Part shown: one piece after another, positions 10,337-53,677 of the stretch
Position numbering within the stretch: the first letter of the stretch is position 1
How the letters are laid out: every line of letters begins with the position of its first letter
NCBI GenBank assembly: GCA_017614375.1
Contig: JAGABZ010000013.1
Span: 262,414-326,413 of the forward strand
Origin: Spirochaetales bacterium
GTDB lineage: Bacteria; Spirochaetota; Spirochaetia; Sphaerochaetales; Sphaerochaetaceae
Direction of reading: 5' to 3'
Length of the DNA stretch: 64,000 nt
Program-made: the position numbers and the translations under genes
The notes under the pieces: model-generated
Seen by the model: the letters and a program-made list of their open reading frames with translations, nothing else
What the model was told of the DNA's origin: nothing
Database searches by the model: none

Positions 10337-11697
10337 TCAACATCAACGAAGTCATCGAAACGAACAACATGATCCAGAAGGAGAACCTGGACGTCCGTAC
10401 CGTGACTCTGGGTATCTCCCTGCTGGACTGTGTCAGCGACCGCATCGACACCCTTTGCGACAACATCCGCCTCAAGATCGCCCGGACCGCCAAAGGCCTG
10501 GTGCCGGTCTGCCGCGAAATCGAGCGCGAATACGCCATCCCGATTGTGAACAAGCGTGTCTCGGTCACCCCGATTTCCCTCGTAGGCGCCGGCGCCTGCA
10601 GAACGGAGGAGGATTTCGTGCGCGTAGCCCGGGCCCTGGACGAAGCGGCCCGGGAGGCGGAAATCAACTTTCTCGGGGGCTATTCCGCCCTGGTTTCAAA
10701 GGGCATGACCCGGGCCGACGAGCTGCTTATCAACTCCATCCCCCGCGCCCTGGCTGAAACCGAACGGATCTGTGCCTCGGTAAACGTCGGCTCGACCAAG
10801 ACCGGCATCAACATGGATGCCGTCCGGCTGATGGGCTCGATAATCAGGAAAACGGCCCATCTGACCGCGGACAGGGACAGCATCGGCTGTGCCAGGCTGG
10901 TGGTCCTGTGCAACGCCCCCGACGACAACCCCTTCATGGCCGGCGCCTTTCACGGGGTTACCGAGACAGACAGCGTGATCAACGTCGGTGTCTCCGGCCC
11001 CGGCGTCATCAACCATGCCATCCAAACGGTCAAAGGCAGGCCTTTCGGCGAGCTCTGCGACACAATCAAAAAGACGGCGTTCAAAGTCACCCGCCTGGGG
11101 CAACTGGTTGCCCAGGAGGCCTCGCGCAGGCTGGGTATTCCCTACGGGATAGTCGACCTTTCCCTGGCCCCGACCCCGGCCGTCGGGGACTCCATAGCCG
11201 AAATCCTCGAGTCGATGGGCCTTGAAAAAGCCGGGGCCCCCGGAACGACTGCCGCCCTGGCCCTGCTCAACGACCAGGTCAAAAAGGGCGGAATAATGGC
11301 CTCAAGCTATGTCGGCGGCCTGTCCGGGGCCTTCATCCCCGTTTCGGAGGACCACGGCATGATCGACGCCGCCTCGTGCGGAGCCCTGACGCTGGAGAAG
11401 CTCGAGGCCATGACCTGCGTCTGCTCGGTCGGGCTGGACATGATCGCCATCCCCGGCAGCACCCCTCAGAGCACCATCAGCGGAATCATCGCCGACGAGA
11501 TGGCCATAGGCATGATCAACCAGAAGACCACAGCCGTCAGAATCATCCCAGTCGAGGGCAAGTCCGTGGGCGACCGCGCCAGCTTCGGCGGCCTGCTCGG
11601 CTACGCCCCGGTCATGGCGGTCAATCCCTGGTCGAGCCGTGACTTCATCGACCGCGGCGGACGGATTCCCGCCCCGGTGCACAGCTTCAAGAACTGA
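10333..11697 (+). CDS. UPF0210 (PFL-like, DUF711) family protein
   Basis: A 454-residue cytoplasmic protein of the UPF0210/DUF711 family. The N-terminus [13 protein letters not shown] and the Gly-rich GVSGPGVIN are family-typical. Structures of this family resemble the pyruvate-formate-lyase barrel fold, but no catalytic role is established. The ATG overlaps the ACT gene stop. It ends an overlapping series that begins with the MoxR ATPase, though a shared biological role for MoxR and UPF0210 is not known. Confidence 0.9.
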
Positions 11698-11713
11698 CAA
11701 TCCGTATCATTAC

Positions 11714-11802
11714 CGGCCCCGGGGCCGCACCGTCCCGTGCGGGCCCTGTCAATTTGACCCGGCATACAGGTCCGGACAGGTGCAGTGTGTCATTTTGACC
11801 CG
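11714..11802 (+). repeat. GC palindrome and 15-bp direct repeats after the UPF0210 gene
   Basis: CGGCCCCGGGGCCG (11714-11727) is a perfect palindrome, and CCGCAC pairs with GTGCGG at 11725-11742, but there is no T run, so termination is uncertain. TGTCAATTTGACCCG (11747-11761) and TGTCATTTTGACCCG (11788-11802) are direct repeats with one mismatch; GTCAATTTGAC is itself palindromic. They may be protein-binding sites. The 326-bp gap 11698-12023 also holds the two entries that follow; I see no convincing gene in it. Confidence 0.6.
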
Positions 11803-11810
11803 CTGACAGC

Positions 11811-11922
11811 CAGGCCTTGCCCGGCCTCTCCCTGGGACCGTATAACTTTTTCGCCAATTTTCATCAAAAAAGTTATATCAACACAACTTTTTGCCCCAAA
11901 AATGCCGGAAAAAGTTATGTTG
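11811..11922 (+). repeat. Tandem-hairpin element A upstream of hsp20
   Basis: GGCCTTGCCC (11812-11821) is followed by two hairpins with the same arm text. TATAACTTTTT (11841-11851) pairs perfectly with 11867-11877. A related arm ending in AACTTTTT (11879-11892) pairs with 11909-11922 over 14 bp with one mismatch. The first loop contains TTTTCATCA (11858-11866). The arms lie about 30-110 bp upstream of the sigma-54-type promoter of hsp20, the distance expected for activator sites. Confidence 0.75.
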
Positions 11923-11950
11923 CCGGTTCCCCGTCGCTACCCCCGGAGAG

Positions 11951-11967
11951 TTGGCACGGATTAAGCA
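11951..11967 (+). promoter_or_regulatory. Sigma-54-type promoter of hsp20
   Basis: TTGGCACGGATTAAGCA has the -24 element TTGGCACG in full, and GG and GC are separated by exactly 10 nt. The -12 part reads AAGCA rather than TTGCA. Transcription would begin near 11978, leaving a leader of about 46 nt. Confidence 0.7.
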
Positions 11968-12023
11968 GTAGGGACGGTGTCGGTCGTAAGGCCGCATGAA
12001 ACAGCAATTATCGGAGGCACGAT

Positions 12024-12443
12024 ATGAGGTATTTGGTAACACGCAACAACAATTCACTGATGGACGGGTTCGACGGAATCTTCAATGATTTCTTCGGCGA
12101 TTGGTCTACGACCTGCAAAATCCCCTCAGTGGACGTCAAGGAAGACGAGAAGCAGTACACCGTCGAGGCGGAGCTGCCCGGGTACACCGAAGCCGATGTC
12201 AGAATCCATGTTCAGAACCATGTTCTGACGATCTCTTCTGAAAAGAAGACCGAGGCCAAGGACGGAAAGAAGTATCTGGTCCGTGAAAGGTACTACAGGT
12301 CGTTCGAGAGGAGTTTCACCCTTCCCGAGGGAATCGACGAAGCCAACATCTCCGCCGAGTTCAAGAACGGAATCCTGGACATCGCACTGCCCAAGCTTCC
12401 GGTGGAGAAGCCGAAGCAGATTGAAGTGAAGATCGGAAGATAA
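12024..12443 (+). CDS. Small heat shock protein, Hsp20 family
   Basis: A 139-residue alpha-crystallin-type chaperone that holds unfolding proteins without ATP. The alpha-crystallin domain spans about residues 30-125 (VEAELPGYTEADVRI, then the conserved FKNGILDIALPK) and the tail is short. GGAGG lies 6 nt before the ATG. It is a single-gene unit between a sigma-54-type promoter with upstream inverted repeats and a terminator at 12471. That suggests activator-controlled stress expression rather than HrcA/CIRCE; no CIRCE element is seen. Confidence 0.96.
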   Translation: MRYLVTRNNNSLMDGFDGIFNDFFGDWSTTCKIPSVDVKEDEKQYTVEAELPGYTEADVRIHVQNHVLTISSEKKTEAKDGKKYLVRERYYRSFERSFTLPEGIDEANISAEFKNGILDIALPKLPVEKPKQIEVKIGR

Positions 12444-12470
12444 GCCGGTCTCCGGATGATTTGACTTGGA

Positions 12471-12504
12471 CCGCCGCGCCGTCGGGTGCGGCGGTTTCTT
12501 TTTA
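12471..12504 (+). terminator. Terminator of hsp20
   Basis: CCGCCGC (12471-12477) pairs with GCGGCGG (12488-12494), followed by TTTCTTTTT. Confidence 0.9.
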
Positions 12505-50253: not shown

Positions 50254-50270
50254 TTGGCACGCTGTTTGCA
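50254..50270 (+). promoter_or_regulatory. Sigma-54 promoter of pspA copy 1
   Basis: TTGGCACGCTGTTTGCA: complete -24 (TTGGCACG) and -12 (TTGCA) elements with GG and GC 10 nt apart. Confidence 0.93.
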
Positions 50271-50344
50271 GTTCTTAAGGCGTACCGGCAAAAGCGGCAA
50301 GCTGCAAACGGGCCGCCTGAGAAAACGGGACAAAGGAGCAGAAA

Positions 50345-51001
50345 ATGAAGTTTTTCACCAGAGTAAAGAACATCGTCAATTCGAACCTCAACAGCGCGTT
50401 GGACAAGATGGAAGATCCGAAGAAAATGATAAAGCTGACCATCGACGAGATGACCGACACACTGGCTGAGGCCAGGGCCAGCCTGGCCGCCTCGATTGCC
50501 GGCCGCAAGCGCTGTGAGTCCGAGCTGAAACTCCTCGGGGAGAGTGTCGGGCGTTGGGAAAAGAGGGCTGAGATGGCAGTGGCCAAGGGTCTGGATGACC
50601 TGGCCCGCGAGGCGCTGACCGAAAAGAAGGCCGCCCAGGCCAAGCAGGCTGCCAAGTCCGAGGAGCTTGCCGCCCTTGACGGAATCATCGAGGCAAAGAA
50701 GGAGCAGATCGAAAAACTGCAGACCAAGCTCGAGGAGATGAAGGCCAAGGCCAACACGATGGTGGCCCGCGCCGCCAGCGCAAAGGAGAAGATCCGCACC
50801 GAAAAGCAGATCCAGGAAGCCGACGGCACCGAGCTGATCCGCCGCTTCGAGGCCTTTGAGGCAAAGGTCGAGAGGCTCGAGGCCGAGGCCGAGGTCGCAG
50901 GGCTCCATCCCAGCGCCGGCGAGAGCCGCTTCGTGCAGATGGAAACCGACGCCGAGGTTGAAAAGGAGCTGGCCGAGCTCAAGCAGAAGGCCGCAAAGTA
51001 A
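50345..51001 (+). CDS. Phage shock protein A family protein, copy 1
   Basis: A 218-residue PspA/IM30 protein, an ESCRT-III-like membrane-maintenance protein that coats stressed inner membranes. MKFFTRVKNIVNSNLNSALDKMEDPKKMIKLTIDEM is the family N-terminal amphipathic helix and start of a long coiled coil (to about 180). AAAGGAG lies before the ATG. It forms its own unit between a sigma-54 promoter and a terminator, apart from the second pspA operon. In E. coli PspA also restrains PspF. Confidence 0.95.
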   Translation: MKFFTRVKNIVNSNLNSALDKMEDPKKMIKLTIDEMTDTLAEARASLAASIAGRKRCESELKLLGESVGRWEKRAEMAVAKGLDDLAREALTEKKAAQAKQAAKSEELAALDGIIEAKKEQIEKLQTKLEEMKAKANTMVARAASAKEKIRTEKQIQEADGTELIRRFEAFEAKVERLEAEAEVAGLHPSAGESRFVQMETDAEVEKELAELKQKAAK

Positions 51002-51025
51002 GATTCAAAATCAGCAAAAGCCTTT

Positions 51026-51048
51026 GGCCGCGGGAAACCGCGGCCTTT
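51026..51048. terminator. Two-way terminator between pspA copy 1 and pspF
   Basis: GGCCGCGG (51026-51033) and CCGCGGCC (51038-51045) with a GAAA loop; TTTG follows on the plus strand and a shorter T run on the minus strand. Confidence 0.75.
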
Positions 51049-51051
51049 GTG

Positions 51052-52095
51052 TTATTTGTGGTACTTTCGGACCAGACCGCGGAACTGGTCGTATGTCAGG
51101 CCCATGAGTTCGGCCGCTTCCTTTTGGTTGGAACAGCTTCGCAGGGCCCGGTCGAGCAGGGCCTGTTCGACCCGCCGCTTTGTACTTTCAAGTTCGGTCA
51201 GACCGATGCCCTCCAGGGCCCGGTCGAGCATCTCCTGCGGGCCTAGAGTCATCTCCGGGGCCATTGTCCGGCTCTGCGCGGAGGTATCCGCTGCGGCCTT
51301 TGCGGCCGGGGGAGCATCAGGCGCGGCATAGGGGTTGGCAAACGGGTCGAGCTGGATGGTTTTTATTTCGCCGCCGCGGTTGCGGTAGACGGCGCGCTCG
51401 ATTACGTTTTTAAGTTCGCGGACGTTGCCCGGCCAGGGGTAGGAGAGCAGCTGCTCTATGACTTCGGGGCTGAACGAGGGACCGGTTTCCAGGCCGCATT
51501 CGATGGCCATCTTTTCGGCGAAGTACTGGGCCAGGAGGATGATGTCGTCGCCCCGCTCGCGAAGCGGCGGGACGAAGATCACCTCGAAACTGAGGCGGTC
51601 CAGGAGGTCCTGCTTGAAGCGGCCCTCGCTGCACAGCCGGGGCAGGTCGGCGTTCGTTGCCCCTACGATGCGGACGTTGAGGTTATGGGTCCGCGAGGAG
51701 CCGACCCGCTCAAAGGTGCCGTATTCGACGACCCGGAGGATTTTCTCCTGGACCTCGAGGGGAATCAGGCCGATTTCGTCGAGAAAGATCGTCCCGCCGT
51801 CGGCCTCTTCGAAGCGGCCCTTGTGGAGCTTCTGCGCCCCGGTGAAGGCCCCCGGCTCGTAGCCGAAAAGTTCGGATTCAATCAGGTTCTGCGGCAGGGC
51901 GGCGCAGTTGACGGTGACCAGAGGATTCTGCCACCGGGAGGAGAGGTAGTGCAGGCGCGAAGCGGCCACTTCCTTTCCCGAGCCGCGCTCGCCGACGACC
52001 AGAACGCTCCGGTCGACCCTGGCGGCCTCGGACAGGCGGTTGAGAAAGTCGAGAAAGACCTCGGATTCTCCCAGATAGTTGCTGCCGTTTTCCAT
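51052..52095 (-). CDS. pspF: PspF-type sigma-54 activator
   Basis: A 347-residue bacterial enhancer-binding protein without a receiver domain, as in PspF. The AAA+ domain has Walker A GERGSGK (35-41), the sigma-54 contact loop GAFTGA (82-87), Walker B GGTIFLDEIG, and PPLRERGDDI; a Pro/Ala-rich linker leads to a C-terminal FIS-type helix-turn-helix (NQKEAAELMGLTYDQFRGLVRK). Lies between two pspA genes, each with a sigma-54 promoter. GGAGGAAG precedes the start. Its -10 (TATTAT) sits in activator site 2, suggesting autorepression. Confidence 0.9.
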   Translation of the reverse strand: MENGSNYLGESEVFLDFLNRLSEAARVDRSVLVVGERGSGKEVAASRLHYLSSRWQNPLVTVNCAALPQNLIESELFGYEPGAFTGAQKLHKGRFEEADGGTIFLDEIGLIPLEVQEKILRVVEYGTFERVGSSRTHNLNVRIVGATNADLPRLCSEGRFKQDLLDRLSFEVIFVPPLRERGDDIILLAQYFAEKMAIECGLETGPSFSPEVIEQLLSYPWPGNVRELKNVIERAVYRNRGGEIKTIQLDPFANPYAAPDAPPAAKAAADTSAQSRTMAPEMTLGPQEMLDRALEGIGLTELESTKRRVEQALLDRALRSCSNQKEAAELMGLTYDQFRGLVRKYHK

Positions 52096-52131
52096 TGTCT
52101 GAGCTTCCTCCGGCGCCGGGCAGGCGCCATC

Positions 52132-52148
52132 TTGGTAAATAATACCAA
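52132..52148. promoter_or_regulatory. Candidate PspF activator site 2, overlapping the pspF promoter
   Basis: TTGGTAAATAATACCAA is a perfect palindrome (TTGGTA-N5-TACCAA). Its centre is 93 bp upstream of the -24 GG of the second pspA promoter, one helical turn more than site 1. On the minus strand its middle reads TATTAT, a plausible -10 for pspF. A weaker half-site CGGTAAAA follows at 52153. Confidence 0.7.
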
Positions 52149-52230
52149 CTTTCGGTAAAAAATGCTACTATTAATGAAGCTGAGGGTTCGGATGTCCCCG
52201 AAAACGGGGTCTGACAGGCCTTGGCCGATA

Positions 52231-52247
52231 TTGGCACGCTTGTTGCA
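52231..52247 (+). promoter_or_regulatory. Sigma-54 promoter of the pspA copy 2 operon
   Basis: TTGGCACGCTTGTTGCA: complete -24 and -12 elements, GG and GC 10 nt apart. Confidence 0.93.
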
Positions 52248-52288
52248 ACTGTGATTTCGACGGACGGATTGCCGTCCCGGGAGGATGT

Positions 52289-52960
52289 ATGGGAGTTTTC
52301 TCAAGGTTCATGGATATAGTGAACGCAAACATAAACGCCATGCTCGACAAGGCCGAGGATCCGGAGAAGATGATCCGGATGATGCTCCAGGAGATGGAGG
52401 ACACCCTGATCGAGCTCAAGAGTTCCTGCGCCGCCAAACTGGCCCGCGCGACCAAGACGGGCAGACTCATCGATGAGCAAAAGGCCCTGATCCAGCGCTG
52501 GCAGGCCCGTGCCGCCCTGGCAGTGGAGCGGGGATTTGACGACCTGGCCCGCGAGGCGATTGCGGAAAAGCGCCGGGCCCAGCAGGAACTGGACAGGCTG
52601 ACCGAGGAGCAGACGAGGCTGGACGATTTGATTAAGGCTGCCAAGGCTGATATAGTCATGCTCGAGGACAAGCTTGACAGCGTGAAACTCAAGTACCAGT
52701 CGATCCTCGAAAAGGCGCGCAGGGAGAGGGAAAAGGCCAGGGCCGACGAGTCCGCCCGAAAGGCCGATGAATCCGAGACGCTGCGCCGCTTCCGCGAGAT
52801 GGAGGAGAAGATCGACCGGATGAACGCCGAGAATCAGATGAACGGCACCGGCACCACTTCCCGGAGCACCGAGGAGCGGTTCAGGGACCTGGAAGAGGCC
52901 GAGGCAGTTGAGCGCGAGCTGCAGAACCTGCGCAGGCAGTCCGAAGGAGAGGAAAAATGA
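52289..52960 (+). CDS. pspA: Phage shock protein A family protein, copy 2
   Basis: A 223-residue PspA. MGVFSRFMDIVNANINAMLDKAEDPEKMIRMMLQEMEDTL is the hallmark N-terminus, closer to E. coli PspA than copy 1, followed by a coiled coil through about residue 190. GGGAGG lies before the ATG. It heads an operon with a PspB-like, a PspC and a DUF4097 protein, so this is the copy most likely to control PspF and answer to PspB/C. Confidence 0.95.
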   Translation: MGVFSRFMDIVNANINAMLDKAEDPEKMIRMMLQEMEDTLIELKSSCAAKLARATKTGRLIDEQKALIQRWQARAALAVERGFDDLAREAIAEKRRAQQELDRLTEEQTRLDDLIKAAKADIVMLEDKLDSVKLKYQSILEKARREREKARADESARKADESETLRRFREMEEKIDRMNAENQMNGTGTTSRSTEERFRDLEEAEAVERELQNLRRQSEGEEK

Positions 52961-53247
52961 GCACCGCCACAGAGATTCTCGGAGTCATCTTCGGCTTTAT
53001 CATCGTCATAGTCCTGATCAACAACCTCCACGAGCTGCTGATGAAAAAGAAGGGCCGCCGTGACGAGGACGAAGAGTCCGGAGACGATGACGACAGGCAG
53101 TACAGAAAGGAAAGAAAGCGCCGCGGCGCGGCGAAGAGTGTTGACGAGATGAACCGTGAGGAACTGCTTAGGGGCATCGACGACCTCAACACCCGCATAG
53201 AAAACATGGAAACTATCATCAGGGGAAGAAAGAAAAATGGCAACTGA
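52957..53247 (+). CDS. PspB-like small membrane protein
   Basis: A 96-residue protein with one N-terminal membrane helix (ILGVIFGFIIVIVLINNLHELL) and a charged cytoplasmic part ending in a short coiled coil (MNREELLRGIDDLNTRIENMETII). This matches the layout of PspB, the PspC partner, though the acidic KGRRDEDEESGDDDD linker makes it longer. The four-base overlap with pspA and ten-base overlap with pspC support the role. Confidence 0.7.
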   Translation: MSTATEILGVIFGFIIVIVLINNLHELLMKKKGRRDEDEESGDDDDRQYRKERKRRGAAKSVDEMNREELLRGIDDLNTRIENMETIIRGRKKNGN

Positions 53248-53677
53248 AAGGCTTTACAGATCGAATTACGGTGAGATATTCGGAGTTTGCAAGGGAATTG
53301 CCCAGTGGAGGGACCTGCCGGTCGGAGGAGTCAGGCTGGTATTCATCCTGATTGCGGTGTTCACCGCCATCGTGCCCTGCCTGCTGGTCTACTGCGTCCT
53401 GGGAATCTTCATCCCGGCCAACCCCAACGAGAAGCCCTCCAAGTCCGATGAGAACGGCGACTGGAACAACTACAAGAGGCGCGAGAAGCGGTCCTACAGT
53501 TCCTCAAAGGCCGAGTACGGCACATACGAGAACGTCAGCGACGATGACAACGAACAGCTCCGCCGCAAGTACGAGGACCTGAAGAAAAAGGTCGAGGACA
53601 TGGAAACCACCGTCCTGGACAAGGAAAACGACTGGGACGCCCGCTTCAGCCAGAGTGACTCGGGAGACGCGAAATGA
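53237..53677 (+). CDS. pspC: PspC-domain membrane protein
   Basis: A 146-residue PspC. RLYRSNYGEIFGVCKGIAQW is the PspC start; two hydrophobic segments (VRLVFILIAVFTAIVPCLLVYCVLGIFI) precede a polar tail with a coiled coil. PspC senses envelope damage with PspB and draws PspA to the membrane. Its stop overlaps the DUF4097 gene start. Confidence 0.93.
   Translation: MATERLYRSNYGEIFGVCKGIAQWRDLPVGGVRLVFILIAVFTAIVPCLLVYCVLGIFIPANPNEKPSKSDENGDWNNYKRREKRSYSSSKAEYGTYENVSDDDNEQLRRKYEDLKKKVEDMETTVLDKENDWDARFSQSDSGDAK

Follow-up and report, generated by a model that had tools for sequence, protein, structure and literature searches.

A sigma-54 promoter precedes the small heat-shock gene ibpB of Escherichia coli, as it does the hsp20 gene described here. 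E. coli, which belongs to a different phylum, also uses sigma-32 for small heat-shock control, and we know of no Rrp2-type regulator and no palindrome like the one reported below in the ibpB system. In the psp operon, a sigma-54 promoter is combined with an enhancer-binding protein, PspF, that has no receiver domain. The Rrp2-RpoN-RpoS pathway has been described in Borrelia burgdorferi (PMC1976401, PMC4014564), where Rrp2 did not bind the 238 bp upstream of rpoS and was described as acting independently of an enhancer (PMC1976401). Heat-shock chaperones, including the IbpA family, have been predicted downstream of sigma-54 promoters in Bacteroidota and Planctomycetota, and the part of that study considered here deals with enrichment in these other phyla and names neither the enhancer described below nor a Spirochaetia hsp20 (PMC12316311). 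No earlier description of sigma-54 in connection with hsp20 in spirochaetes was found in a literature search limited to open-licence papers.

The DNA analysed here, referred to as the window, is a 64-kb stretch from the genome of a member of the Sphaerochaetaceae (1.54 Mb in 17 contigs, 98% complete), the family to which its nearest named relatives also belong. The features around its hsp20 gene are as follows:

11745-11761, unstranded: UAS1, predicted distal enhancer palindrome CCTGTCAATTTGACCCG, 206 bp upstream of the -24/-12 element
11786-11802, unstranded: UAS2, predicted proximal enhancer palindrome TGTGTCATTTTGACCCG, 165 bp upstream of the -24/-12 element and 41 bp from UAS1
11841-11877, unstranded: first AACTTTTT inverted repeat, arms 11841-11851 and 11867-11877, 11 of 11 positions paired
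11879-11922, unstranded: second AACTTTTT inverted repeat, the next unit 41 bp on, arms 11879-11892 and 11909-11922, 13 of 14 positions paired
11951-11967, plus strand: sigma-54 (-24/-12) promoter TTGGCACGGATTAAGCA, assigned from sequence and conservation
12009-12024, plus strand: short RNA hairpin with most of the Shine-Dalgarno GGAGG (12013-12017) in its loop, assigned by energy comparison
12024-12443, plus strand: hsp20, encoding a 139-residue small heat-shock protein (PF00011, HSP20, 6e-26)
12468-12497, plus strand: intrinsic terminator 3' of hsp20, a 13-pair stem followed by a T run

The initial annotation of this DNA had placed a sigma-54 promoter at 11951, and the comparison with relatives bears this out. 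The site carries the GG and GC of the TTGGCAC-N5-TTGC-like consensus at the correct spacing, 57 bp 5' of the hsp20 ATG at 12024, with a -12 half (AAGC) that is weaker than the usual TTGC. The number of matches in the window alone is unexceptional (5 at one mismatch or fewer, against 3.9 expected), and the promoter is taken as real because it is conserved in orthologues. Orthologues of hsp20 occur in 49 of 61 related genomes, and nearly all of their upstream regions contain TTGGCAC-type promoters. Among 75 hsp20 upstream regions, which represent the non-redundant named loci of relatives, 66 contain a strong -24/-12 site, compared to 0.65 expected from dinucleotide shuffles; most of the regions under the threshold either precede the second gene of a tandem hsp20 pair or miss the threshold narrowly. 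Transcription would start near 11978. As the annotation had also stated, there is no sigma-70-type site between the upstream gene and hsp20, and no match to CIRCE (TTAGCACTC-N9-GAGTGCTAA) at up to three mismatches, which leaves hsp20 outside an HrcA/CIRCE regulon. The proposed joining of small heat-shock control to sigma-54 stands, though not as the peculiarity of one organism: the conserved sites indicate that hsp20 is under sigma-54 across the Sphaerochaetaceae and in most of the Spirochaetia families sampled.

The promoter is accompanied by a conserved element that the annotation had not mentioned, namely the direct repeats TGTCAATTTGACCCG (11747) and TGTCATTTTGACCCG (11788). A profile trained on the hsp20 upstream regions of other genera, with the window's own genus excluded, gives the palindromic consensus TGTGTCAAAATGACACA (TGTGTCAnnnTGACMCA). 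UAS2 is the top match to this profile in the window (23.3 bits) and UAS1 the second (14.9 bits), compared to 11.7 bits for the best position outside the two, and their order is unchanged when the composition of the window is used as background. The UAS2 score was never equalled among 3 million random positions; a score like that of UAS1 is expected 0.38 times per 64 kb of random sequence, so UAS1 counts because of its place. The element is present in all 70 of the hsp20 loci counted for it, a figure that is partly circular since the profile was trained on those loci. The arrangement at hsp20 agrees with what is expected of an enhancer, tandem palindromes at roughly 80-200 bp upstream that are conserved together with the promoter, and the UAS1/UAS2 pair is best read as the predicted enhancer of a sigma-54 activator.

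A different set of repeats, lying between this pair and the promoter, had originally been put forward as the activator site. The four AACTTTTT-type arms do form two inverted repeats, as claimed, and the arrangement AACTTTTT-N8..24-AAAAAGTT occurs at only two places in the window, where none is expected. Eight AACTTTTT units were found in the genome, in three intergenic arrays with 41-bp spacing, at hsp20, C6:2635 and C6:144829. The 41-bp tandem repeat arrays are located at:

L301 3828-3983
L300 2635-2706
window 11841-11922

In each 41-bp repeat, a palindromic stretch of 26 bp is conserved and the other 15-16 bases vary. All five junctions of the arrays contain the linker AAAAAGTTRTGTTGATAYAACTTTTT without a mismatch, and eight relatives (two congeners and six further members of the family) lack it. 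The repeats themselves are absent from the congener G002, and a single, chance-like case was seen among the 75 related hsp20 upstream regions. The annotation had suggested searching the genome for this repeat near other -24/-12 promoters: the search returned the two C6 arrays, which precede malQ/fusA-like and isochorismatase-like genes and have neither a convincing sigma-54 promoter nor the enhancer. A different, lineage-specific sigma-54 activator that uses the AACTTTTT repeats as its enhancer is therefore a highly improbable explanation of the locus. Their placement would suit it, as they are centred some 79 and 120 bp upstream of the predicted start, and so would their occurrence strongly above chance and a 41-bp spacing like that of the other enhancer; against it stand the two arrays without a convincing sigma-54 promoter, the absence of the repeats from those eight relatives, and a genome with only three full-length sigma-54 activators over the family cut-off. 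The AACTTTTT repeats are probably not the enhancer, and a lineage-specific intergenic tandem repeat fits the sequences best. The A-tracts at hsp20 are centred at 11849, 11859.5, 11868.5, 11890, 11900 and 11911, spaced at about one helical turn, and the repeat may perhaps act as curved DNA between enhancer and promoter or as an operator of some kind.

The UAS1/UAS2 palindrome is also found upstream of a second gene. On contig C1, three copies placed 40 bp apart are followed by TTGGCATGCATGTTGCA and then by an RpoS-like sigma-factor gene; this sigma-54 promoter (L075 11189-11205) lies 5' of the group-2 sigma-70 gene at 11229-12071. The product scores 268.6 with the RpoS model, under its cut-off of 378.7, and may be an orthologue of Borrelia RpoS, with which it has 33% identity, a linked position and a shared promoter. 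Since the profile was trained on hsp20, the upstream regions of the sigma gene serve as an independent test set. The promoter is matched in 29 of 30 orthologous regions, and a palindrome pair 38-42 bp apart is present in all 29 loci scored, the best pair being exactly 40 bp apart in 26 of them; no such pair arose in 1400 hsp20 upstream regions after shuffling. The enhancer and promoter pattern extends to most of 24 other Spirochaetia families sampled, the exceptions being G049, G059 (sigma-gene enhancer weak or absent in both) and G054, which a plasmid match of 100% identifies as Borrelia turicatae. Neither the sigma-gene regions nor those of hsp20 matched an Rfam family.

A scan of 22 genomes for pairs exactly 40 bp apart recovered the sigma gene in ten genomes and hsp20 in a single one, was blind to 41-bp pairs such as that at hsp20 in the window, and gave other matches at about control counts, so that no further target was established. 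A strict sigma-54 pattern applied to the whole genome did not recover the sigma-gene promoter, which has TTGGCAT where the pattern demanded TTGGCAC. A separate observation concerns L077 3964-4060 (G000:C1:191963 onward), where a perfect sigma-54 promoter has no gene close behind it and a strong intrinsic terminator within about 100 nt. The stretch is a candidate for a small RNA that depends on sigma-54 and contains CCUCCUUUU; some 110 bp upstream of the promoter there is a weak palindrome resembling the enhancer (11.6 bits).

RpoN is encoded in this genome (C10:97287-97775; PF04552, 4.5e-51; TIGR02395, 369.8 bits against a cut-off of 277.35), together with the three full-length activators; a fourth, weak match is a different protein. 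EBP1 (C1:34441-35790, 450 residues) combines a receiver, an AAA+ sigma-54 domain and a Fis-type HTH, and its gene is directly 3' of one for a PAS-type histidine kinase. Nearly all genomes compared have a counterpart conserved at 54-75%, and in many of them its gene is within about 5 kb of the sigma gene. EBP2 (C13:32495-33853) is a second NtrC-type activator, and the third is PspF, an equivalog match. In the window, the PspF gene is located between two pspA genes, with a gene for a PspC-domain protein also present (50254-53677), and each pspA gene has its own sigma-54 promoter (50254, 52231).

The suggestion that an activator other than PspF may act at hsp20, already made in the initial annotation, is supported. 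The hsp20 palindrome is absent upstream of both pspA genes (best scores 6.3 and 5.5 bits), and PspF was rejected as the regulator on this ground. More generally, binding of the palindromes by EBP2 or PspF is very unlikely, even though both are present in the genome and EBP2 is widespread in the family. PspF adjoins pspA genes of its own that have no such palindrome at their promoters, and several complete genomes retain the enhancer pair without a clear orthologue of EBP2 (none above about 50% identity in G005, G015, G043, G046, G048 and G057). Conversely, EBP2 is kept in G014 and G030, where the enhancer pair is absent. In G014 no Rrp2-type gene was found beside the sigma gene; in G030 the sole Rrp2-type counterpart is divergent, with the receiver domain absent and the HTH shortened. 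The RpoS-like gene of both genomes still has a perfect sigma-54 promoter, and hsp20 is missing from both, which could be coincidence. The two belong to one genus, and their pattern is support rather than proof because it represents a single evolutionary event. The activator-like gene without a receiver in G030 (L238/L286) is itself located near the RpoS-like gene whose promoter has lost the enhancer. G007 and G013, at 86-88% completeness, also yielded no Rrp2-type gene, and the enhancer of hsp20 or of the sigma gene is retained in them. Among the three activators, EBP1 is the likely reader of the enhancer.

EBP1 has the make-up of an Rrp2 protein, with a receiver, an AAA+ sigma-54 domain, a Fis-type HTH and an adjacent kinase gene. 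The activator of Borrelia turicatae is 54.4% identical to EBP1, compared to 40.9% to EBP2, and in a tree with only two outgroup families it groups with the EBP1-type activators and not with EBP2 (support 0.83). The HTH end, IGRKTLH, is still common to the Borrelia activator and EBP1. By these comparisons EBP1 is the orthologue of Borrelia Rrp2. The gene arrangement is also similar: in B. turicatae a kinase gene lies upstream of the Rrp2 gene, and rpoS, about 7 kb away, retains a sigma-54 promoter (TTGGCATGATTTTTGCA), just as the rpoS-type gene near EBP1 stands behind one here. The difference lies in the enhancer. No enhancer above 7.5 bits occurs within 420 bp of B. turicatae rpoS, in line with the enhancer-independent activation by Rrp2 published for B. 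burgdorferi (PMC1976401), and hsp20 of B. turicatae has neither a sigma-54 promoter nor the enhancer. In the family studied here, by contrast, the tandem enhancer is conserved, hsp20 is a predicted second target, and enhancer-independent activation does not describe the locus.

The leader of hsp20 offers another possible level of control. Across species, the short hairpin around the Shine-Dalgarno sequence displays covariation; its energy is weak, with a mean of -2.64 over 56 distinct sequences, compared to -1.76 +/- 0.17 when the 3' flanks were swapped between species (0 of 500). The hairpin may be an RNA thermometer that adds temperature control of translation. Many hsp20 leaders also begin with a 5' hairpin. 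The covariation, and the lack of a classical heat-shock operator at hsp20, could be taken to mean that heat control acts mainly through this hairpin, with the -24/-12 match marginal and the palindromes serving as operators of a repressor or of a sigma-70-class regulator. Such an arrangement has little probability, as two unrelated genes have the palindromes together with a sigma-54 promoter, and the palindromes, rather than overlapping the promoter, are 76-201 bp away from it, as an enhancer would be.

The promoter, the enhancer pair, their conservation, their sharing with the sigma gene, the linkage of the genes and the phylogenetic pattern, as read from the sequences, point to an Rrp2-type circuit. 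In this reading, to which we give a probability of roughly 0.8, hsp20 would be transcribed directly by sigma-54 RNA polymerase, driven by an Rrp2-type activator and RpoN through the paired enhancer, and the RpoS-like sigma gene would be driven likewise. The PAS-type kinase would phosphorylate EBP1, the Rrp2-type response regulator; phosphorylated EBP1 would bind both palindromes (11745-11761 and 11786-11802), four helical turns apart, and would reach the promoter at 11951-11967 by DNA looping. One two-component signal would then raise the hsp20 chaperone directly and, in parallel, the general stress sigma factor.

We consider it probable, with somewhat less assurance, that an Rrp2-RpoN circuit with a tandem enhancer is ancestral to the Spirochaetia, where it would have jointly controlled an RpoS-like factor and hsp20, and that the enhancer-independence of Borrelia is derived, both the enhancer and the hsp20 branch having been lost. 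The comparison provides a concrete candidate DNA site for Rrp2-type regulators, which were described as enhancer-independent in Borrelia, and points to sigma-54 control of a small heat-shock gene in most of a class. It also suggests what the circuit may do elsewhere in the class, namely control a stress sigma factor together with a protein-protecting chaperone, and Sphaerochaeta, which are non-pathogenic, may serve as models for the Rrp2-type circuit.
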